From contig SMXG01000048.1 of the NCBI GenBank assembly GCA_004356775.1, positions 1-60,632 on the forward strand: DNA of 60,632 nucleotides, given 5' to 3'. Every line of letters starts with the position of its first letter. The first letter of the stretch is position 1. The translations under genes and the position numbers were made by a program. Below the pieces are notes generated by a model. That model worked only from the letters and a program-made list of their open reading frames with translations, was not told where the DNA came from and did not search any database. The DNA is from Betaproteobacteria bacterium (GTDB lineage: Bacteria > Pseudomonadota > Gammaproteobacteria > Burkholderiales > Nitrosomonadaceae). Positions 2-11,674 of this stretch are shown in pieces.

Positions 2-970
2 GCCACCGTAAGCTACCAGGGTACGCTTAACTTTAACGGCGTGGATACCTTAACGATGGTCTCGATCGATAGTGCGGGCGTGCCACTATCGGATACCGAT
101 GCGGTGACAATTAACGTGACCGCAGTCAACGATGCCCCAGTCGAACAACGTCGTTTCTTCGAACCACGTATGTTCTTGAATACCGATTCAATTAATACGG
201 CTATATTTAGATGGCTAGTCGCTAACGAGCCGACGTCACCTGTTTTGACCGCTATCCATAACCTTCGCAACCAGACTATCCTAAATTCAGGGCTAGGTGT
301 ATTTCAAACGGATAGTGTTACTAGGGCTGAGCTGATTGCTGGAAAGGGTTCTGATATAAAAGTTGAGTCTGGTTCAAACAGTGAAAATGCTATTACTAGG
401 CTAATTGAGCGTAATAGTAACCCATTAGGTATCGGTATAAACCAGTCTCATTCCGATACCCCAACCTATGTGCAAAATGCTGTGAGGCATTTAGATTTAA
501 AGACATCTTCAGCATCAGTGCAACAAGTGGTTAAGGAATCGCAGCTAGAGTCGGTGGTACGTGGAATACGTGTGGACTCTGCTGACAATACCGCGATTCC
601 AGTAGTAACCAACATAATTGATCCATTCGCACCATTTATTCCATTTGCAACTGATAAAGGATTGGCTGATTCTGAGCAACAAGTAAGTGGAGAAGATACC
701 CAAAATGAATCCACTATAAAACCAATTGCTACTGAGAAACCAGTGAGTGAGACCGATGCTCAAAGTGAAAATCCTCAGTTGACTACAGACGAGTCTCAGA
801 CTAAGAGGAGTCATATTGTAGACCCGGAACCAATCACTAATTTGAATCAAAAAGATGACACAGAAAAAAATCTAGGTGAGAAAGTGGCTGCCAAAAGCTT
901 TAGTAGCCAGATACAACGTATGGTTACCAATACGCGCGCACCTTCAAGTGGTACGCCAAATGGTGAATAG
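2..970 (+). CDS. Giant cadherin/VCBS-repeat surface protein, C-terminal part (partial)
   Basis: The reading frame is open from the left edge, so only the last ~322 residues are seen. The first ~45 residues are the end of a cadherin/VCBS-like beta-sandwich repeat, closing with the hallmark DTDAVTINVTAVNDAP motif. After it comes a ~270-residue tail rich in Ser, Thr, Glu, Asn and Gln, with no repeat, no Cys, no membrane segment and no GGxGxDxxx RTX nonapeptides. Proteins with such repeats are usually very large, secreted or cell-surface adhesins; that this one is exported by the genes just downstream is inferred from position. The next gene most likely starts inside its last codons (ATG at 960), which suggests one operon. 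The N-terminus and total length cannot be judged from this window. Confidence 0.75.
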   Translation, partial: ATVSYQGTLNFNGVDTLTMVSIDSAGVPLSDTDAVTINVTAVNDAPVEQRRFFEPRMFLNTDSINTAIFRWLVANEPTSPVLTAIHNLRNQTILNSGLGVFQTDSVTRAELIAGKGSDIKVESGSNSENAITRLIERNSNPLGIGINQSHSDTPTYVQNAVRHLDLKTSSASVQQVVKESQLESVVRGIRVDSADNTAIPVVTNIIDPFAPFIPFATDKGLADSEQQVSGEDTQNESTIKPIATEKPVSETDAQSENPQLTTDESQTKRSHIVDPEPITNLNQKDDTEKNLGEKVAAKSFSSQIQRMVTNTRAPSSGTPNGE

Positions 971-2912
971 AGGGACGGACGCTTGGCATTCTATTAATTC
1001 AAATTCTAAAAGAGATGACGTATTGAATGATTTGGTTACAAGGAAAGCTCCTAAGAAGGTTCTTGTTGGAATTGGTTTAGTGTTGCCGCTACTACTATTT
1101 TCAGGGTGCGCTATTATACCTAAGCCAATTACTCAAGATGAGGTAAGGAACCGGATCGCTGAAGATACCGCAGGCATGTATCTAAACCAAGAGCCCATTA
1201 ATGGGCCAGTTTCGGTTGAGGAGGCCATAGCACGCACACTAAAGTATAACCTTGATTACCGATTGAAGCAGATGGAATCTGCGCTTGAATTAGGCCTCAC
1301 GGGATTTGCCAGCTATGACATGCTACCTAGGCTACTTACCTCAGCAGGTTATCGTTCGCGTCTTAACGAACCGGGTGGTACATCTATAGGTATTATAGAT
1401 AATCAGATTTCATTGCGGCCATCTAGAGCAACACAAAAAAATCATGCACAAGCGGCTGCCGAGTTTTCCTGGAACTTGCTCGACTTTGGTGTTTCCTATT
1501 ATCGAGCACGTCAGCAAGCAAATAAATTCCTAATTGCCGAAGAGCGACGTCGTAAAGTTGTTCAAAACATGGTGCAAGATGTGCGCACTTCCTTCTGGCG
1601 TGCATTGGGTGCGCAGCGGCTCGCTAAGCAAACAAAGGAGATTCTTAACCAGGCCAATCTAGCTTTAGCTCGTTCACGTGAAGCTGAAGTGCAGCGTCTT
1701 ATTCCACCAGCACTCGCTCTAAACTATCAACGAGCTCTATTGGATGCAATCTCTTTGTTAAACTTGCGTAGACAAGATTTGGAGATTGCCAAGCGAGAGC
1801 TGGCTGCTCTAATGAATGTTGAACCAGGAGTAGATTTCATTTTGGAAGAAGCGGACGAAGCTAAACTACCTGCACCGCCAACTGATATCCGTAAGCTGGA
1901 AGAGTTGGCATTACTACAGCGCTCAGAGTTGCGTGAAGAGGACTCCAGGAAGCGTATTACCGCAGATGAAACACGCAAACAATTGCTTAGTATGTTGCCA
2001 TCCGTAAGCTTTGACTATGGGTTTAATTTTGATTCCAATAATCTTCTTTATAACAATAGTTGGTTCCAAGGTGGTGTTCGAATATCCTGGAATTTGATGC
2101 GCATTGCAGCCATTCCTTCGCTCCTTAAAGCACAAGAGGGACAAGTCGAAGTCGATCGTTCAAGAAGGATGGCATTGTCCATGGCGATTATGACACAATT
2201 GCGTGTAGGTGCAGAGCGATATCGTTTAGCAATAATAGATTTCAAACTGGCAGATATCGGTTTTCAAGTAGATCAGCGTTTAGCTGCCAATATGCGCGCC
2301 TCTGTTACAGCCAAACTGAATAGTGAATTAGAAGCAATCAGAATCAATGCACGCGCAGTATTGGGTGCCTACCAGCGAGCTAATGCCTACGCTAATGCAC
2401 AGATTGCCTTTGGGCGTCTCTACAATACACTGGGCTTTGATCCACTACCCGATAATTTTGATGATGATACTCTGGAAAAATTAACTGAGCGTATTCGTGA
2501 GCACCTTCAAACAACCGAAGAAGATACGCTTAGAATGACATCTAATTTATTTGGCCATTTACCAACACTTTCGATCACATTTGTAGGGGTTGAGGATCCG
2601 GTCTTGCAAGTTCGCATGAAAGCACAAGTGGCTGCATTATTAGCACGTCATCAGATTGATTTGGATGCAGAGAATGGTGTTCCCCTCATACTCACAATGC
2701 AACGTATCCCGAGTGACGAGATCGAGACGACTATCTGGACTCTAGAACTAGAAGGCGGTAGCGATACGAACAAAAAACCAGCAAAATTCGTAACTACATT
2801 ACCAAGTAACTCGCGTGCCTCAGCATATGAAAGCGCATTAATTGCGGCAGTAACTTCTGTGCTCCCTGAGCTCCGCTCATGGCTGGCAGAGTTAGCAAAG
2901 GAGGATAAATGA
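960..2912 (+). CDS. TolC-family outer membrane channel lipoprotein with C-terminal extension
   Basis: The product is a TolC/OEP-type outer membrane channel of about 650 residues. It has a hydrophobic stretch ending in a lipobox (LLLFSGC, Cys about residue 50) and then two long helical repeats typical of the family, for example the segment around RTSFWRALGAQRLAKQTKEI. The family runs to about residue 500; a further ~150 residues follow that do not look like TolC helices. The start is uncertain. ATG 960 overlaps the previous gene by 11 bases and gives an unusually long region before the signal; TTG 1023 would give a normal lipoprotein signal. The open frame runs back to about 876, but that part lies inside the previous gene. 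The stop shares ATGA with the next gene, so translation is probably coupled. It would form the outer membrane exit for the adaptors encoded downstream. Confidence 0.8.
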   Translation: MVNRGTDAWHSINSNSKRDDVLNDLVTRKAPKKVLVGIGLVLPLLLFSGCAIIPKPITQDEVRNRIAEDTAGMYLNQEPINGPVSVEEAIARTLKYNLDYRLKQMESALELGLTGFASYDMLPRLLTSAGYRSRLNEPGGTSIGIIDNQISLRPSRATQKNHAQAAAEFSWNLLDFGVSYYRARQQANKFLIAEERRRKVVQNMVQDVRTSFWRALGAQRLAKQTKEILNQANLALARSREAEVQRLIPPALALNYQRALLDAISLLNLRRQDLEIAKRELAALMNVEPGVDFILEEADEAKLPAPPTDIRKLEELALLQRSELREEDSRKRITADETRKQLLSMLPSVSFDYGFNFDSNNLLYNNSWFQGGVRISWNLMRIAAIPSLLKAQEGQVEVDRSRRMALSMAIMTQLRVGAERYRLAIIDFKLADIGFQVDQRLAANMRASVTAKLNSELEAIRINARAVLGAYQRANAYANAQIAFGRLYNTLGFDPLPDNFDDDTLEKLTERIREHLQTTEEDTLRMTSNLFGHLPTLSITFVGVEDPVLQVRMKAQVAALLARHQIDLDAENGVPLILTMQRIPSDEIETTIWTLELEGGSDTNKKPAKFVTTLPSNSRASAYESALIAAVTSVLPELRSWLAELAKEDK

Positions 2913-3883
2913 TATATTGGCTTACTGGTAGCTTGGTAGTCCTGGCTCTAGTGACCTTTTTGTTTAAGCCTGAATCTACTCAATCCACTGATGTGGATGT
3001 AAAAAAGGTTGTCAACAGCAAAAAGGTTATCACTACAAGTGATACTAATAATCTAGCTCCATCACTTAATGCATCTTCGGAAAAAAGACAGGCTGGTGGA
3101 GGCCTTAAAACTACAGATTCTGACACTATAAATGTGGGAACTCTAGTTGATTCTAAATTTGTTGGAGATAGTATTTACGGAAATCGAGCAAAAAAAACGA
3201 GCGCTGTTGGAACTGAAACAGTGCGAGTTTTACTTATACCTGACCAAGAGACAACTGTTTCTCGGTCAGGCTCCAGCCTGGCGGCTGCACGAATCAACAA
3301 ATTGAATGTAACCCTAGGCAGCACGTTTAGTGCTGGTAAAACACTAATCACCTTTAATTGTAATGTGCCACGGGCACGACTGGATATGGTTGAAGCGGAA
3401 TTGTCAGGTGCTATAGAGACGCACACAGCTAAGCTGAGAATGCAGGGTTTGGAACAGGCGGGTGATGTCGAGGTCGCTTTGGCAGCAAGTGTTGTAGCTA
3501 AAGCTCGTGCAGAGGTTAAATTAGGAGAATTACAAATAAGCTATTGTTCGATCACAGCGCCTTGGGATGGTCGTGTTGCAAAAGTTTACGTACGTAACCA
3601 TATGACCGTTACACCTGGGCAGCCGATGCTTGATTTGGTAAAGTCTGGCCCGTTAAGACTGAGGGCAAATATGCCGTCCAGGTTACTGAGTCAACTTAAG
3701 GTTGGCTCGGAGTTTGAAGTAACAATCGATGAGACTGGGGAAACATACCAAGCAATTGTGATAGCCATCAACAGTCGTGTTGATGCTGTAAGTCAGACAG
3801 TTGAGATTGAAGGTTTGATGACCCAAAGTTTTCATGGACTACTCGCAGGAATGAGTGGTACAGCAATAATGCCTGAAATGTAG
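2909..3883 (+). CDS. RND/HlyD-type periplasmic adaptor (membrane fusion) protein
   Basis: This 324-residue protein starts with one membrane segment (residues 2-20), followed by a ~70-residue polar linker. The rest resembles RND efflux adaptors: a split lipoyl-like half (GSTFSAGKTLITFNC), a short helical hairpin, the second lipoyl half (ITAPWDGRVAKVYV), and a beta-barrel region ending in a GLLAGMSGTAIMP motif. Its ATG overlaps the TGA of the TolC gene (ATGA). Adaptors of this family bridge an inner membrane pump and a TolC-like channel, but no pump gene follows, so its partner is unknown. The hairpin is short, so it may not reach the channel alone. Confidence 0.78.
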   Translation: MIYWLTGSLVVLALVTFLFKPESTQSTDVDVKKVVNSKKVITTSDTNNLAPSLNASSEKRQAGGGLKTTDSDTINVGTLVDSKFVGDSIYGNRAKKTSAVGTETVRVLLIPDQETTVSRSGSSLAAARINKLNVTLGSTFSAGKTLITFNCNVPRARLDMVEAELSGAIETHTAKLRMQGLEQAGDVEVALAASVVAKARAEVKLGELQISYCSITAPWDGRVAKVYVRNHMTVTPGQPMLDLVKSGPLRLRANMPSRLLSQLKVGSEFEVTIDETGETYQAIVIAINSRVDAVSQTVEIEGLMTQSFHGLLAGMSGTAIMPEM

Positions 3884-3933: not shown

Positions 3934-5292
3934 ATGAGTAATATCAACGAAACTACTAAGCAGCCTTCATTAGATGCACTTCTCAACTTAGATTTACGTT
4001 CTGTAAAAGCTGTCAATCCGGCAGATCTGGCTTTCATTATAGTTAATGAAACAATAACCTTGGTGTCGTATCGGCAGGCAGCGTTCTTTACAATATCAGC
4101 TGATGGAAAGTTTGAGTTTACCACCGCATCAGGTTTGGTGAGCGTGGCAGAAGATTCTCCCTACGCTATATGGATTAGCAGTTTCGTTAAAACTTTCCCA
4201 AGAATACTTCCAAAAGAAGCTGGTTGTCATAAGCTTGATTTTTCAGAAGTACCAGAAGAATTTAAAGATGGTTGGGAGGAGTGGTTGCCCGAGCATTTAC
4301 TTATAGCACAGTTGTTTGACCAAACTGGCACGCAACTAGGGATGGTGATGTATGCCAGAGAAGAGCCGTGGCTTCCCGATGAACTTGAGAAGTTGGAACG
4401 CATACATCAAATCTATGGATCTTGTCTTGGGTTTTTAAGCAAAGTAAAGATTGATTTTATTACAAGAATACGTGGATGGATGCGTAAGGCAGTAAGTTAC
4501 TGGGTAGTGATTGCTATTTTTGTAGGTTTGTCTATCCCTATTCGTTTGTCTGTTTTAGCCCCAGGTGAGGTTGTCGCTTTAAATTCATTTGCTGTTGCGG
4601 CCCCACATGACGGTGTAATCAGTGCAGTTCATGTGCAACCAAACTCAGTAGTTAAAGTTGGAGATTTATTGTTCTCATTAGATAACACCACTGTAACTAG
4701 CAGGTTGGATATAGCAGAAAAGGCATTGTCAATTGCGCGCACGGATGCTTTAAGTGCGCAACAGCGAGCGTTTAACGATCTAAAAAGTAAAGGTGAGATT
4801 GCCTCCGCGATAGGTCGTGTTCGCGAGAAAGAGTCTGAGCTAGCATTAGTAAAAGCTTTAATGGCGCGAATAGAAGTGAGAGCTGAGCGTGATGGTATCG
4901 CGATCTTTGGTGATCCAAATGATTGGATAGGAAAGCCTGTGCAAACTGGTGAACGCGTGATGCAACTGGCGAATCCGCGTGACGCAGGTATACTGGTATG
5001 GCTACCAGTACACGAAGCATTGAACTTAGATATCGGCGCACCGATGCGCTTATTCTTGCATATTGATCCACTTAATCCATTGTCTGCATTATTATTGCAA
5101 ACCAGTTTTCGTCCTGTGTTGAGTCCAGAAGGTGTATCTGCGTATCGAATAAAAGGGGAATTTGAGAAAGACGTGGAGAAGCCGCGTATCGGCCTGCGAG
5201 GCACTGTACGTATCTCTGGAAAGTGGGCTACTTTGGGGTATTATTTTTTTCGAAGACCAATAACTGCAATACGTGAATGGACTGGCTTATGA
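3934..5292 (+). CDS. HlyD-like adaptor with cytosolic GAF-like N-terminal domain
   Basis: The 452-residue product has an unusual layout. Residues 1-185 contain no signal and look like a soluble, cytosolic domain with a GAF-like pattern (hydrophobic strands around 35-55 and a helix at 148-165). One membrane segment lies at about 189-206. The periplasmic part follows: a lipoyl half-motif (APHDGVISAVHVQPNSVVKVGD), a short coiled hairpin at about 255-305, the second lipoyl half (RAERDGIAIFGD) and a beta-barrel. Ordinary HlyD proteins have only a short cytosolic tail, so the head may sense something or bind a partner. The GAF call is from pattern only. It follows the previous gene by 50 bases and overlaps the next. 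No clear ribosome binding site precedes ATG 3934. Confidence 0.7.
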   Translation: MSNINETTKQPSLDALLNLDLRSVKAVNPADLAFIIVNETITLVSYRQAAFFTISADGKFEFTTASGLVSVAEDSPYAIWISSFVKTFPRILPKEAGCHKLDFSEVPEEFKDGWEEWLPEHLLIAQLFDQTGTQLGMVMYAREEPWLPDELEKLERIHQIYGSCLGFLSKVKIDFITRIRGWMRKAVSYWVVIAIFVGLSIPIRLSVLAPGEVVALNSFAVAAPHDGVISAVHVQPNSVVKVGDLLFSLDNTTVTSRLDIAEKALSIARTDALSAQQRAFNDLKSKGEIASAIGRVREKESELALVKALMARIEVRAERDGIAIFGDPNDWIGKPVQTGERVMQLANPRDAGILVWLPVHEALNLDIGAPMRLFLHIDPLNPLSALLLQTSFRPVLSPEGVSAYRIKGEFEKDVEKPRIGLRGTVRISGKWATLGYYFFRRPITAIREWTGL

Positions 5293-7409
5293 GTTCATCC
5301 ATGCATCCGGAGTCGAATAGACAAATTTTTCTTCCCCCACTGCGTGAGGAGCTTAAATTGCTTCCCGCAGCACCAAATAAAGATGGATCGTTAGCCTGGA
5401 TGGTGCAAGATCCCATTAATAATAGTTTCTTTCGTATTGGGTGGCTTGATTTTGAGATGTTATTGCGCTGGACTTACGGCTCGCCAGAGAAAATTGTGGA
5501 TTCGGTTAATAACGAAACCACATTAGATATTGAGGTCACAGATGTCAATGATTTAAAGCTTTTCTTGGAGCAAAATAGTTTGCTCCAAGCGAGCAGTCAG
5601 GAAGCTGTTGATCAGCTTAGGCAGCGTGCTAAAGAACTGAATAAAGGTTTTCTCAATTGGATACTGCACCACTATCTTTTTTTTCGCATTCCTCTCTTTC
5701 GTCCGCAAGTTTGGTTAGCAAGCCTAATGCCCTGGGTTGGTTGGATATTCACTCGTACTACTTTCATTGTTGTTACCTCTCTTACCCTGATCGGAATTTT
5801 TCTAGTTATACGGCAATGGGAAACGTTCTCTAGTACTTTTGTTGATCAGCTTACTTGGTCAGGTTTGCTAGGGTATACAGTAGCACTAGTTTTTGCGAAA
5901 ACTCTGCATGAAATGGGGCATGCACTAACTGCGACTCGTTATGGAGTAAGAGTAGCGCACATGGGTGTGGCATTGTTAGTAATGTTACCTATGATGTATA
6001 CCGATACCAGTGAAAGCTGGAAACTAAGTAACCCACGACAGCGTTTGGCAGTTGCAAGCGCCGGAATTATCACAGAGCTAGCTTTAGCAGGTTTGGCCAC
6101 ATTGGCGTGGAGTCTGTCACCAGATGGGTCCATCAAAAGTGCATTATTTTTTCTGGCAACGACAAGTTGGTTGCTTACGTTATTAGTGAATGTAAGCCCA
6201 TTTTTGCGCTTTGATGGCTACTTTATCCTGATGGATGCAATAGACTTCCCAAATTTGCACCAGAGATCTGGTGCATTTGCTCGCATTTGGCTTAGACGTG
6301 TTTTGCTTGGTTTTAATGATTCCTGGCCTGAAGATATTCAGGGTAATGGCAAGACCTTTTTAATTGTATTTGCATTCATGACGTGGTTGTACCGACTGGT
6401 AGTATTTCTTGGCCTTGCAGTATTGGTTTATTACATTTTCTTTAAGGTTTTGGGTATTATTCTCATGGTGGTGGAGCTGGTTTGGTTTATTTGGCGACCT
6501 ATACGGTCCGAACTAAGTATATGGCGTGAAAGAAAGTCGGAAATTAAAACTAGTCGTGTGTGGATGGCCTATGTGCTACTTGGGATTATTCTGGTGGTGG
6601 TGCTTGTACCATGGCATACGGCAATTAGTGGGCCGGGCTGGGTGCATCCAGAGCGTTTTCATGTACTGTATTCGCCTTTACCCGGTCGACTAGTTAGATT
6701 GCCAGAAAGTCACAATGTAACTAGTGGACAACCATTGTTTATCCTAGAGTCTCCAGACTTGCAGTTGTCTGCAGCGCGAGCAAGGTGGCTCGCTCAAGCT
6801 CGTGCTAACGAATTGGTTGGTTTAATGGGAATACCAGGCGGCGAGGCGCGCAGAGAGCAAGTTCGAGCGCAGCAAGAAAAATATATTGCTGAAGAAAAAC
6901 TTTTTCTGGACGAGCAGTCGCGATTAAAAATATTAGCACCATTTTCTGGGACGATTGTAGATTTGGACTATGAACTTGCACCCGGTGTGTGGATTAAACC
7001 TAGTCAACCTTTGGCTACTTTAGTAGATTATTCGCAATGGGTGGTTGACGCGTACATTAACGAGGAGGATATTTATCGAGTAAGTGTAGGTGACAAAGCA
7101 CAGGTATACAGGCCTCTAAGGCTGGGTGTGCTTCAAGGACAAGTCATTGAGATTGACACTACCCGGACGACAGTACTTCCGCATTACAGTTTAAATGCAA
7201 AGTCAGGAGGTGACATTGTTACTCTGGATAATGAGAAAAATGTCCCTCGACATGCAATATATCGCGTACGTGTGAAGTTAGACAGGCCTCCACCTGAGAG
7301 CCACCAAATGAAAACTGGAAATGTAGTAATTAGTGGTGAGGCTAAAGCATGGCTACCAACCGTCCTTAAGCGAATTGGTGCTGTAGTAGTTCGAGAGAGT
7401 GGCTTCTAG
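5289..7409 (+). CDS. M50 site-2-type metalloprotease fused to HlyD-like region, PqqD-like N-terminus
   Basis: The product is a ~706-residue multi-domain membrane protein. Residues ~10-115 are soluble and resemble a PqqD/RiPP-recognition winged helix (PPLREELKLLP, then FFRIGWLDFEMLLRW). The middle is a polytopic M50 zinc protease: HEMGH at about 207-211 is the zinc and catalytic motif, and VNVSPFLRFDGYF at about 300-312 supplies the family's third zinc ligand (FDG). From about 455 on, after a last membrane segment, comes a periplasmic HlyD-like part with both lipoyl halves (YSPLPGRLVRLPESHNV and LAPFSGTIVDLDYE). Start ATG 5289 shares ATGA with the previous stop; ATG 5277 is the alternative. 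The combination suggests a membrane protease built into an export complex; the substrate is unknown. Confidence 0.75.
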   Translation: MSSSMHPESNRQIFLPPLREELKLLPAAPNKDGSLAWMVQDPINNSFFRIGWLDFEMLLRWTYGSPEKIVDSVNNETTLDIEVTDVNDLKLFLEQNSLLQASSQEAVDQLRQRAKELNKGFLNWILHHYLFFRIPLFRPQVWLASLMPWVGWIFTRTTFIVVTSLTLIGIFLVIRQWETFSSTFVDQLTWSGLLGYTVALVFAKTLHEMGHALTATRYGVRVAHMGVALLVMLPMMYTDTSESWKLSNPRQRLAVASAGIITELALAGLATLAWSLSPDGSIKSALFFLATTSWLLTLLVNVSPFLRFDGYFILMDAIDFPNLHQRSGAFARIWLRRVLLGFNDSWPEDIQGNGKTFLIVFAFMTWLYRLVVFLGLAVLVYYIFFKVLGIILMVVELVWFIWRPIRSELSIWRERKSEIKTSRVWMAYVLLGIILVVVLVPWHTAISGPGWVHPERFHVLYSPLPGRLVRLPESHNVTSGQPLFILESPDLQLSAARARWLAQARANELVGLMGIPGGEARREQVRAQQEKYIAEEKLFLDEQSRLKILAPFSGTIVDLDYELAPGVWIKPSQPLATLVDYSQWVVDAYINEEDIYRVSVGDKAQVYRPLRLGVLQGQVIEIDTTRTTVLPHYSLNAKSGGDIVTLDNEKNVPRHAIYRVRVKLDRPPPESHQMKTGNVVISGEAKAWLPTVLKRIGAVVVRESGF

Positions 7410-7632: not shown

Positions 7633-8661
7633 ATGAAATCATTAGTTACTGGTGCAAATGGTTTTGTCGGTTCAGCGGTCACACGTTGTTTGTTGGCTGC
7701 TGGTCACGAAGTACGGTGTCTAATCAGACCGGAAAGTGACCGGCGTAACCTTGATGGGTTGCCCGTTGAAATTTCAGAAGGTGATTTACGTGATATCGCA
7801 TCATTGAAGCGTGCAATCTCCAATTGTGAAAATTTGTTTCACCTTGCTGCAGATTATCGTCTTTGGGTGCCGAATCCGGAGACCATGTATGATATTAATG
7901 TCAAAGGGACTCAGGCACTGATACTTGCTGCGGCCGAAGCTGGCATGAGTCGTATTATATATACCAGCAGTGTAGCTACTTTGGGATTAAATTATGATGG
8001 TAACCCAGCAAATGAAGAGACCCCCTCCAGCCTTGACGCAATGATTGGGCACTATAAGCGTTCAAAATTCATCGCAGAACAGGTAGTCCGGCATCTCACC
8101 AACAAACATAAGCTACCTTTAGTTATTGTCAATCCTTCTACTCCCATAGGGCCACGTGATATCAAGCCAACGCCTACAGGGCGAATAGTGGTTGATACGC
8201 TTCGTGGCCGGATGCCAGCTTACATGAATACTGGCCTGAACATTGCGCATGTCGATGATATTGCACAGGGCCACCTGCTGGCATATATGCATGGGAGACC
8301 AGGAGAGCGTTATATTCTGGGAGGCGAGAACATGAATTTATTGCAAATTTTGCAGACAATAGACGAGATTGTCGTAAAAAAGATAAAACGAATAAATATT
8401 CCAGTGACGTTGATTTTCCCCATAGCTTGGATAATGGAGAAGATTGCGATTATTACGAATGTTGAACCCCGTGTGTCAATAGACAGTATTCGTATGGCGC
8501 AGAAAAAGATGTTTTTCTCTAGTGAAAAAGCTATACGTGAGCTAGGCTACCAATATCGATCTTCAACAGAGGCGATTAAAGATGCGATAACTTGGTTCCA
8601 GAATAATGGTTACTGCGGTAGATATATAAATTCACCCGCTAGAAAAAATTCCCTAGTGTAA
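7633..8661 (+). CDS. hpnA: Hopanoid-associated sugar epimerase (NAD-dependent, SDR family)
   Basis: This is a 342-residue extended short-chain dehydrogenase. It shows the Rossmann nucleotide motif TGANGFVG (6-13), the active-site Tyr-x-x-x-Lys (Y141, K145 in HYKRSK) and the Ser region TSSVATLG (111-118). The HLAADYRLW segment near residue 70-78 and the overall length match HpnA, found in many hopanoid producers and thought to act in building or modifying the hopanoid side chain. No other hopanoid genes lie here, so the role rests on family resemblance alone. The gene stands alone between the secretion module and the convergent copper operon. A weak AAGG lies 12 bases before ATG. Confidence 0.82.
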   Translation: MKSLVTGANGFVGSAVTRCLLAAGHEVRCLIRPESDRRNLDGLPVEISEGDLRDIASLKRAISNCENLFHLAADYRLWVPNPETMYDINVKGTQALILAAAEAGMSRIIYTSSVATLGLNYDGNPANEETPSSLDAMIGHYKRSKFIAEQVVRHLTNKHKLPLVIVNPSTPIGPRDIKPTPTGRIVVDTLRGRMPAYMNTGLNIAHVDDIAQGHLLAYMHGRPGERYILGGENMNLLQILQTIDEIVVKKIKRINIPVTLIFPIAWIMEKIAIITNVEPRVSIDSIRMAQKKMFFSSEKAIRELGYQYRSSTEAIKDAITWFQNNGYCGRYINSPARKNSLV

Positions 8662-8735: not shown

Positions 8736-8758
8736 TTTGCACACTGCTATCGTGCAAA
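8736..8758 (+). terminator. Possible weak terminator hairpin between hpnA and csoR
   Basis: TTTGCAC (8736-8742) and GTGCAAA (8752-8758) form a 7-bp stem with a 9-base loop, followed on the + strand by TTTTCG. It could end hpnA transcripts, but it overlaps the last codons of csoR, and the stem is short. Confidence 0.3.
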
Positions 8759-9058
8759 TTTTCGTAACACAACCATCAGTTCATCAATTGCTACATTACC
8801 TTTTCCAGACTTGATTGCACCTTGCATGCAGCCGTGAGTATGATTTTCTAGCAGTCGCATGGCAACGGCATCAAGCGCAGATTGCAGCGCAGATACTTGG
8901 TTTAAGACGTCAACGCAATAACGATCTTCCGCTATCATTTTGGTGACACCGCGTACCTGTCCCTCAATACGGTTGAGTCGCTTTATCAGTGCATCTTTGT
9001 TTGGCTGCACCACAGTCTTAGGTGTGTTGCATGGTTTTTTTTTAGATAATGACTTCAA
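8747..9058 (-). CDS. csoR: CsoR-family copper-sensing repressor
   Basis: The 103-residue all-helical protein belongs to the CsoR/RcnR (DUF156) family. It has the family signature [14 protein letters not shown] and the copper triad of true CsoR proteins: Cys48, His73 and Cys77, with the same spacing (25 and 4) as the Cys36-His61-Cys65 set of the founding member. Such proteins release operator DNA when they bind Cu(I). The start is TTG at 9058, supported by AGGAG six bases upstream, and it overlaps the end of copZ by 17 bases, so translation is likely coupled. Being last in the copA-copZ-csoR operon, it probably represses its own promoter upstream of copA. Confidence 0.88.
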
Positions 9059-9248
9059 AACCCGCTCCTACGATTGCTTCTTTGAAATGATTTTCATTAG
9101 TTTTTTTGGCATCGTATTGGATTGTGGCCTGTTTGTCTTCTAGCGAAACATCTGTACTACTTACTCCGGAAATTTCCTCCAGTACGTTTTTTACACTCCT
9201 GACACAACCCATGCAGGTCATGCCTTTGATATTCACTATAGTTTGCAT
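9042..9248 (-). CDS. copZ: Copper chaperone CopZ (heavy-metal-associated domain protein)
   Basis: A 68-residue single HMA domain with the Cu(I)-binding loop GMTCMGC at residues 9-15. CopZ-type proteins carry Cu(I) in the cytosol and pass it to the ATPase CopA or to CsoR. ATG 9248 ([12 protein letters not shown]) is chosen over upstream in-frame starts because it begins right at the domain's first strand. The gene lies 32 bases after copA and overlaps csoR. Confidence 0.88.
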
Positions 9249-9280
9249 TTTATATACTTCATTGATAAAAGATTTGTGTT

Positions 9281-11674
9281 TCAAGAACCTGCCTGCCACC
9301 GTTTCAACAACAAAGAGTTGCCTACTACCGACACTGAGCTCATCGCCATTGCTGCGGCCGCAATCATCGGATTGAGTAATCCCATTGCCGCAAGAGGTAT
9401 GCCAAGTACGTTGTAGATGAAAGCAAAAAATAGATTCTGACGGACTTTACTAAGCGTTCTGTGGGAGAGAGAAATCGCATCAGCTACACTCATCAGGTCA
9501 TCGCGTACTAGGGTGATGTCGGCGGCTTCAATCGCCACATCAGAGCCAGAACCTATGGCGAAACTCACGTTAGCTGCTGCCAGCGCTGGAGCATCATTTA
9601 TGCCATCTCCCACCATAGCGGTAAACTTACCACTAGCTTTCATTCTTTCCACTTCAGCGGCCTTATCTTGTGGCAGTACTTCGGCGCGGTAACTGGTAAT
9701 TCCTACCTGCTCGGCAATAGCGTAGGCAGTAGCGGGGTTGTCACCTGTGAGCATCATCACTTCGATTCCCATGGATTGCAAACGCTCTACCGCCTGTTTG
9801 GAAGTACTCCGCAGTTGGTCGGCAATTGCGAGGTATCCAAGGACTTCAAGTTTGCCGCTGAACATTTTGGCAACACCGATGACGGTTTTACCTTCAGCTT
9901 GAAGTGTGGCTATACGATCGCTATCAATTACGGCACCGCGATTAATTAAAAATTTTGTTGCACCGAGCATAAACTCAGTTCCATCAATGCGAGCAATGAT
10001 TCCGTTGCCAGTGACGGCGATAAAATCACTGACTGTTTGCGGTCTAATATTCATGCCCTCGGCACGTTCTAATACTGCTTTGGCAAAAGGATGTTCCGAA
10101 CTCTGTTCCAAGGTAGCGGCAACCTGCATTAAAACATGCTCAGCAATCGATCCTGCAGGAACAATATTGGTAACCACTGGCTTACCTTCTGTGAGGGTAC
10201 CAGTCTTGTCCACAATAAGTGTCTGGATTTTTTCTGCCTGTTCCAGTGCGGCAGCATTTTTAATCAGTACGCCGACTTGCGCGCCGCGCCCTGTTCCGAC
10301 CATGATTGCTGTTGGTGTAGCTAGCCCTAGCGCGCAGGGGCAAGCAATTACCAATACTGTTACGGCGTTAATAAGTGCCAGAACGAAATCGTCGACAAAC
10401 CACCAAGTCAGTATCAGAGTCAGAGCGCTAATAGCTACCACTACAGGCACAAATATGCCAGAAATTGTATCGGCCATTCTCTGGATTGGCGCTTTGGAAC
10501 CCTGCGCTTCTTCTACTAGGCGGATGATGGCCGCAAGTTGGGTATACGTGCCAACACTGGTGGCACGGCATTTGAGCAGGCCTTGTTGGTTCATGGTTGC
10601 GGCGTAAACTTTTGTGCCAACCGGTTTGGGAACTGGCAGGCTCTCGCCGGTCAGCATTGATTCGTTTACACTGGACGAACCCTCGATGACGATACCATCT
10701 ACTGGCAGATTTTCACCCGGGCGTACGATAAAAATATCATTTATCTTAAGGGTGTTTGCGTCTACCTCAATGATCTCACCATCATGCTCCACCCGTGCAG
10801 TTTTGGGTTGTAGTCCGATAAGTTTTTCAATGGCCGCTGAAGTTTTACCTTTGGCACGAGCCTCCATTAGCTTGCCCAGCAAAACCAGAGTGATGATGGC
10901 TGCGCCTGACTCAAAATAAACATGTTGATTTAGCACCAACAATGTTACAACCGCACTAAAAAAATATGCCATGCTAGTGCCAAGTGCAACCAAAACATCC
11001 ATGTTTGCGCTGCCTCCGCGAATCGCGTGCCATGCGCCTGTATAGAAGCGCATACCAATCCAAAATTGTACAGGAGTTGCCAGTAACCACTGCAGCCAGC
11101 GCGGTAGCAACTCGGCATTTGTGTCCGAAAAAATAGCAACCATATGTAGCATTAATGGTAGGGTAAGGGCAGCAGAAATCCAAAACATACGAAGTTCTGC
11201 CTGGTAGGCAACAAGTCGTCGTGCTTTTTCTTCAGCACGGTTGGCTTCGTTGATCTCAGTCGCGCTATAGCCTTCTTTGACAACGGCAGCAATCAGATCA
11301 CTCACCGTTGTAAATCCAGGGTTGAAGCTAGCGTGGACTTTTTCTGAGGCTAGATTGACAGTGGCCGCAACCCCAGGAAGATTGTTCAACGCCCTCTTAA
11401 TACGCCTGCTACATGCTGTACAGGTCATCCCATTAATTTGTAGTTGTACCGATTGGGAAACAACATGAAATCCAGCTTTTTCAATAGAGCGAACCAGATT
11501 GTCAGGTATGGTCTGGGTATCATCGAATTTGATTCGTGCTTTCTCGTTAGCCAGATTAACTACTGCATGTACACCTGGCAGTTTATTTAGATTCTTTTCT
11601 ATACGTATTGCACAGGACGCACAAGTCATGCCCTCGATAGGTAGTTCGATTTGTTTAAGATTGGGAGAGTTCAA
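9281..11674 (-). CDS. copA: Cu(I)-exporting P1B-type ATPase CopA
   Basis: This 797-residue pump exports Cu(I) from cytosol to periplasm. It carries two N-terminal HMA domains (GMTCASC near residue 15 and GMTCTAC near 83), eight expected membrane segments, the Cu-translocating CPC motif in [13 protein letters not shown], the phosphorylation site [11 protein letters not shown], a TGES loop and the [10 protein letters not shown] hinge. Start is TTG 11674, preceded by AGGA with a 7-base spacing; no nearby ATG would keep the first HMA domain whole. It is the first gene of copA-copZ-csoR and is transcribed from a promoter carrying a CsoR-type operator. Confidence 0.95.

Follow-up and report, generated by a model that had tools for sequence, protein, structure and literature searches.

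The M50-adaptor and its locus

The DNA analysed here, called the window, is a stretch of 60,632 nucleotides from a Nitrosomonadaceae genome (contig SMXG01000048.1 of assembly GCA_004356775.1). Our subject is a membrane protease of the M50 family fused to a periplasmic adaptor arm, hereafter the M50-adaptor, which is encoded by the last gene of a cassette at the beginning of the window. The five genes of the cassette lie on one strand, the forward strand (+), in the order giant tandem-repeat protein, TolC-type channel, adaptor 1, GAF-type adaptor 2 and M50-adaptor. No ATP-binding cassette (ABC) or resistance-nodulation-division (RND) pump was found among them.

The M50-adaptor gene (5277..7409, 710 residues) was delimited by its open reading frame (ORF), by Pfam matches and by alignment of homologs. 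An earlier reading of this DNA, the original prediction, had placed its start at 5289. This is the second ATG, and the first one, at 5277, is preferred because two relatives (L002 and L003) keep the motif MDxPVS and have no methionine at codon 5; the end at 7409 is unchanged. The original prediction had also seen an intact M50 protease in the motifs HEMGH and FDG, and this was upheld. The protein spans the membrane several times, being the only one of the locus to do so, and matches Peptidase_M50 over residues 201–277 (E 8e-10). HEMGH, the zinc-binding and catalytic motif, is found at residues 211–215 (5907..5921), and FDG, with the third zinc ligand D313, at residues 312–314 (6210..6218). H211, E212, H215 and D313 were invariant in an alignment of 46 sequences with identities down to 20%, and HExxH was intact in 72 homologs out of 72. 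Viral contigs, scanned for a deeper alignment, yielded no new protein. The closest protease models were two for leader-cutting enzymes of ribosomally synthesised and post-translationally modified peptides (RiPPs), namely the daptide HExxH protease (NF041824, 179.6 bits) and YydH/LiaK (NF058609, 40 bits), both scores lying under the curated cut-offs of 300 and 225 bits, respectively.

The C-terminal part, residues 447–710 (6615..7406), had been described as a HlyD-like periplasmic arm. Pfam matches to HlyD_D23 (residues 478–626, E 2e-10) and HlyD_3 (residues 551–631, E 6e-10), together with hhalign matches of 99.6% and 99.8% to the neighbouring adaptors 1 and 2, confirmed this assignment. The arm is homologous to both neighbours, and the locus therefore encodes three different adaptor arms.

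Homologs were surveyed in Pseudomonadota, with at most two M50 candidates scored per genome, so that some copies may have been missed. They form a clade A, that of the window, and a distant clade B (nine loci, 20–23% identical, monophyletic with support 1.0). The head of the protein, residues 15–125 (5319..5651), was compared with PqqD domains, which bind leaders in RiPP enzymes. Single-sequence searches were too weak for this purpose, Pfam PqqD matching just one of 32 homologous heads. In profile-profile comparison (hhalign) against 28 PqqD domains, by contrast, a match over the whole domain was obtained at 90% for clade A, 97% for clade B and 96% for both clades together, whereas 60 column-shuffled controls did not exceed 5.4% and four alignments of unrelated families did not exceed 0.2%. 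The proposal of a head resembling PqqD or RiPP recognition elements is supported at the level of profiles. Structure prediction had been suggested as a check; the AlphaFold models were poor because they were built from four sequences only, with predicted local distance difference test scores (pLDDT) of 41.6 for the whole M50-adaptor and 58.5 for the head alone. The head model shows a hairpin then three helices, an arrangement as in PqqD, but a fold search of the PDB with it returned noise only, without a match. When the profile of the head was compared with the sequences of the PDB, the matches were likewise due to chance only.

Upstream in the cassette, adaptor 2 (3934..5292; HlyD_3, E 2e-10) consists of a GAF-like domain (residues 1 to about 180), a transmembrane segment (about 183–209) and a HlyD arm. 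GAF matches were obtained for 7 of 15 homologous adaptor 2 N-termini, and none for the window copy itself. Adaptor 1 (2909..3883) is of the HlyD/RND membrane fusion protein type (HlyD_3, E 4e-12; HlyD_D23, E 7e-11), with one N-terminal transmembrane segment at residues 1–19. The TolC-family outer-membrane channel (960..2912; Pfam OEP, E 1.6e-21) is probably a lipoprotein, as read from its lipobox LFSGC. Its ORF opens at a GTG at 876, and its likely start is the ATG at 960, which overlaps the stop of the preceding gene. That gene (2..970, open from the contig edge, stop codon at 968–970) encodes the C-terminal part of a giant tandem-repeat protein of the cadherin/tandem-95 type, the first 48 or so residues of the fragment matching the tandem-95 repeat NF012211. 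Its tail, in which no RTX repeats were seen, carries the sequence SFSSQI 24 residues before the end (896..913). In homologous loci this position is occupied by giant proteins, mostly of 1300 to 4500 residues. The cargo type of the locus is a giant adhesin-like protein, and not a small RiPP-like peptide.

Giant cargos and their motifs

Of the 390 Pseudomonadota genomes of good quality in the survey, 79, or about one in five, contain the M50 family. The block formed by adaptor 1, adaptor 2 and the M50-adaptor recurred in nearly all of the 34 clade-A loci; a channel was recognised in 25 of them, and a giant protein was the usual fourth partner. When ABC transporters were searched for across 43 loci, just one, incidental, ABC gene was scored (in L090), and a hidden ABC transporter serving the cassette was rejected on this ground.

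The clade-A giants carry the motif LExRxxFD[GA]A some 10 to 60 residues from their start, and its L, E, R and D were invariant in 28 cargos. Within the loci, 26 motif-bearing ORFs were observed, against 0.35 expected by shuffling. After flanking DNA had been added, a giant ORF with the motif was present in 31 of the 34 loci; of the other three, two are truncated by a contig end. The association extends to whole genomes. Among 396 genomes, the motif model matched 66 of the 69 having a clade-A M50 and none of the 327 without one, and the motif was present in 45 of 48 clade-A genomes that had been left out of model building. Several genomes contain up to seven motif proteins, on separate contigs, for one or two M50 copies, so that a single exporter probably handles several cargos. 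A 3938-residue ORF with LExRxMLDA (L167, G473:C1:410303) lies in a genome where no M50-adaptor was detected; it may be an exception or point to a more divergent exporter. In Burkholderia thailandensis, the DUF4347 protein BTH_II1339, reported among the proteins most strongly induced in stationary phase (PMC12322963), is possibly a cargo of such a system, observed as protein.

Cargo N-termini have no evident Sec signal, their median maximum hydrophobicity being 1.40 compared to 2.37 in the signal peptides of the channels. In many clade-A cargos, basic residues and then a moderately apolar stretch come before FDGAA. LExRxxFD[GA]A is one version of an unexplained domain, "LEPR-XLL". The corresponding NCBIfam model (NF012209, 24 residues) matches some clade-A cargo N-termini, the FD[GA]A form scoring mostly near or below its cut-off; NCBIfam describes the domain only, and a link of LEPR-XLL to an exporter was not found in the accessible part of the open literature. 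The cargos also share an element at their other end. In their last 60 residues, the pattern [FL]xxQ[LIV], which was chosen after inspecting the same sequences, was found in 20 of 25 clade-A cargos, whereas the expectation from shuffled sequences is 2.0, with no more than 6 in any of 500 shuffles. The common form is S[FL]xxQ[LI], which SFSSQI of the window fits.

Clade B presents a variant of the same arrangement. In its loci the GAF-HlyD adaptor is longer and is accompanied by an M50-HlyD protein. Six of the nine loci share a SecA paralog, and the cargos carry a variant motif, LExRxLLSAD. NF012209 matched in all 13 genomes having clade B only, with a giant ORF beside the M50 gene in 10 of them. 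Clade A is paired with LExRxxFD[GA]A and clade B with LExRxLLSAD, meaning that the motif type follows the protease clade. Extra SecA genes were found in 10 of the 13 clade-B-only genomes, compared to only 2 of the 314 that have no M50 of either clade. In several genomes, LEPR-XLL ORFs exceed 10,000 residues, as in L158 (G255:C7:325859; 13,628 residues) and on G180:C115 (19,427 residues), which is very large for bacteria.

Clade B corresponds to a locus type that was already described. Kamneva, Poudel and Ward (2015) reported a SecA_DEAD / Peptidase_M50 / GAF-HlyD locus, the broader role of which was "completely unknown", and suggested a role similar to that of type I secretion systems (T1SS), in which SecA would be the ATPase and M50 might form a pore (PMC4452313). 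The accessible text of that paper names no substrate, N-terminal motif or PqqD-like head. The window locus has in common with it an M50 protein and a GAF-HlyD adaptor, and neither contains an ABC transporter; the window clade differs by the lack of a SecA paralog in the locus and by a TolC-type channel and an adaptor 1 of its own. No SecA_DEAD paralog was found in the window locus or in the window genome. A corresponding link in planctomycetes is presumed from a resemblance of motifs and from the 2015 report.

Proposed export route and its alternatives

Comparison of loci and genomes thus gave the parts of the system, their linkage, the cargo, its motifs and their co-occurrence with the protease. 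We consider it highly probable that the system exports the motif-bearing giants. This is the best-supported step because it combines linkage, co-occurrence, matched clades of motif and protease, and the presence of a channel and adaptors. With somewhat less confidence, it also appears probable that the exporter resembles a T1SS but works without an ABC transporter, that it is meant for giant repetitive surface proteins, and that the M50-adaptor is its core component in the inner membrane. The PqqD-like head of the M50-adaptor and the clade-specific motif make it fairly likely that this protein reads the N-terminal motif. Finally, we lean, by a small measure, towards its cutting the motif-bearing leader, since its catalytic residues are strictly conserved and its closest named relatives are RiPP leader proteases.

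On this proposal, the giant cargo would be made without a normal Sec signal, bearing LExRxxFD[GA]A at its N-terminus and S[FL]xxQ[LI] at its C-terminus. The cytosolic head of the M50-adaptor, possibly together with the GAF domain of adaptor 2, would bind the N-terminal motif, and the cargo would pass the inner membrane at the membrane domain of the M50 protein or next to it. The arms of adaptor 1, adaptor 2 and the M50-adaptor would form a mixed ring docking on the TolC-type channel. Cleavage by the M50 site at or near the motif would release or mature the cargo, which would fold outside as an adhesin-like fibre. As for the motor, SecA is the likeliest candidate in our analysis because a SecA paralog is co-encoded in the related clade B; in clade A it would necessarily be the housekeeping SecA. 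The original prediction held that the protein could recognise a leader, cut it in the membrane and hand the cargo to a TolC channel. It gained from the finding that the M50 gene is adjoined by genes for a TolC-family channel, for two more adaptors and for a giant cargo, and that a conserved leader-like motif on the cargos of homologous loci tracks the protease across genomes with hardly an exception, but binding, cutting and passage through the channel, like route and topology, are steps that we infer.

Three other arrangements of these parts were considered. The cargo could be a substrate of Sec whose signal, LEPR-XLL, is unusual. Housekeeping SecA and SecYEG would then handle it, the M50 protein would replace LepB as its signal peptidase, and the adaptors and channel would take over from the periplasm. 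The SecA paralog linked to clade B, the absence of a motor proper to clade A and the basic residues and moderately apolar stretch preceding FDGAA in many cargos are all consistent with such a route. However, the hydrophobicity of the cargo N-termini is well below that of the channel signal peptides, and two charged residues, E and R, are invariant at the centre of the motif; we therefore regard it as unlikely, albeit a serious contender. It appears slightly more doubtful that the M50-adaptor is only a scaffold or pore which cuts no cargo, with SecA, adaptor 2 or some other factor reading the motif. Its being the sole multi-spanning protein of the locus would suit this role, as would the fact that the motif of the cargo does not span the membrane, and the M50 protein of the SecA-linked locus was earlier read as a possible pore (PMC4452313). 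A mere pore, however, would need neither an HExxH kept in all 72 homologs nor a D313 invariant down to 20% identity, and the motif type changes with the protease clade. The resemblance of the protease core to the daptide and YydH/LiaK leader-processing proteases could also indicate an exporter of RiPP or bacteriocin-type peptides with leader cleavage, the giant gene being an unrelated neighbour. This is very improbable. Among ORFs of at least 100 residues in the 43 loci (shorter ones were not clustered), no recurrent small peptide or modifying enzyme was found, and the giant protein co-occurs with the M50 family genome-wide (66/69 versus 0/327), unlinked copies included. A RiPP peptide exporter was strongly disfavoured because of these two results, the lack of a conserved peptide and the genome-wide cargo link.

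Several observations weigh against the export route that we favour, or against parts of it. The cargo motif has no stretch that spans the membrane and so is not a classical intramembrane substrate, and the winged-helix fold of the head is supported by profiles but not by a confident model. A conserved extra motor gene was looked for in clade-A loci and not found, while 47 of the 69 clade-A genomes, and the window's own, have a single SecA. The surveyed genomes are related, so that Fisher values for the co-occurrence overstate its significance. Three Nitrosomonadaceae cargos have no C-terminal motif and end near a hydrophobic stretch; at least two of these three loci have a large GGDEF/EAL-type protein inserted. 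As to the window itself, the N-terminus of its cargo lies beyond the contig start and is not in the assembly, and no credible match to NF012209 (LEPR), DUF4347 or Cadherin_4 was found elsewhere in this metagenome-assembled genome (MAG).

Exporters of giant adhesin-like proteins normally need an ABC pump. The proposed exporter resembles T1SS (HlyB-HlyD-TolC, and the LapBCE type for giant adhesins) by an adaptor and a TolC-family channel beside a giant repeat adhesin-like cargo with a C-terminal motif. It differs by the lack of an ABC transporter, by three different adaptors, by the protease-adaptor fusion and by the conserved N-terminal motif of its cargos. With the RiPP leader metalloproteases it shares the M50 core and, likely, the cutting of a soluble N-terminal leader; the periplasmic adaptor arm and the giant cargo are added features. 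The cargo N-termini, for their part, carry LEPR-XLL or a variant of it. We judge the chances about even that M50-adaptors constitute a separate Gram-negative secretion class for giant surface proteins, with SecA-less and SecA-linked forms, in which LEPR-XLL would serve as the address. A RiPP-style domain would read this address, and the membrane protein that cuts it would also be a part of the periplasmic conduit. In the open-access literature searched, neither the export route of LEPR-XLL giants nor the role of M50/HlyD/SecA loci was established. Once the two are linked, the loci acquire a substrate and the motif a likely function, and a directly testable signal results. If the proposal is true, a protease-adaptor can take the place of an ABC or RND pump at a TolC-type conduit.

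Spread of the cassette and neighbouring genes

The nearest public relatives of the window genome are a Nitrosospira MAG (87% identity) and a Nitrosomonadaceae MAG (79%). In the M50 tree, the window protein groups with copies from the same order (G512, G201), Cupriavidus and E. coli, and not with those of its own family, for which reason the cassette was probably transferred between lineages. Among 5426 complete E. coli genomes, 24 contain it, in most cases on a plasmid. It forms there a unit of five genes with insertion elements on its borders, composed of a giant Ig-like protein, TolC, an adaptor, a HlyD adaptor and an M50-HlyD protein. This looks like a minimal mobile unit, and the natural five-gene form in E. 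coli and in Cupriavidus metallidurans CH34 (L026), an environmental strain used in the laboratory, makes genetic tests practical.

Variations on the gene order were also recorded. In L003 (804-3035), a single shortened ORF of 744 residues matches both the channel and adaptor 1, owing to a deletion, a fusion or an assembly error. A PAS-GGDEF-EAL type protein lies between cargo and adaptor 1 in two Nitrosomonadaceae loci (L067:6028-9045 and L069:9189-12209), which hints at a control of the system by cyclic di-GMP. In three loci (L071:51-1682, L070:2-772 and L090:4326-5981), a TadE/G-like protein (Tad domain) is encoded immediately upstream of the cargo and is a possible extra surface partner.

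Directly downstream of the M50-adaptor gene, the window contains an NAD-dependent epimerase/dehydratase (7633-8661) which, as read from its sequence, resembles a hopanoid-associated sugar epimerase; it is not a recurrent partner of the cassette. It is followed on the reverse strand (8747-11674) by a probable copper-handling group, likewise read from the sequence, with a CsoR-like regulator, a small HMA-domain protein and a CopA-type P-type ATPase.

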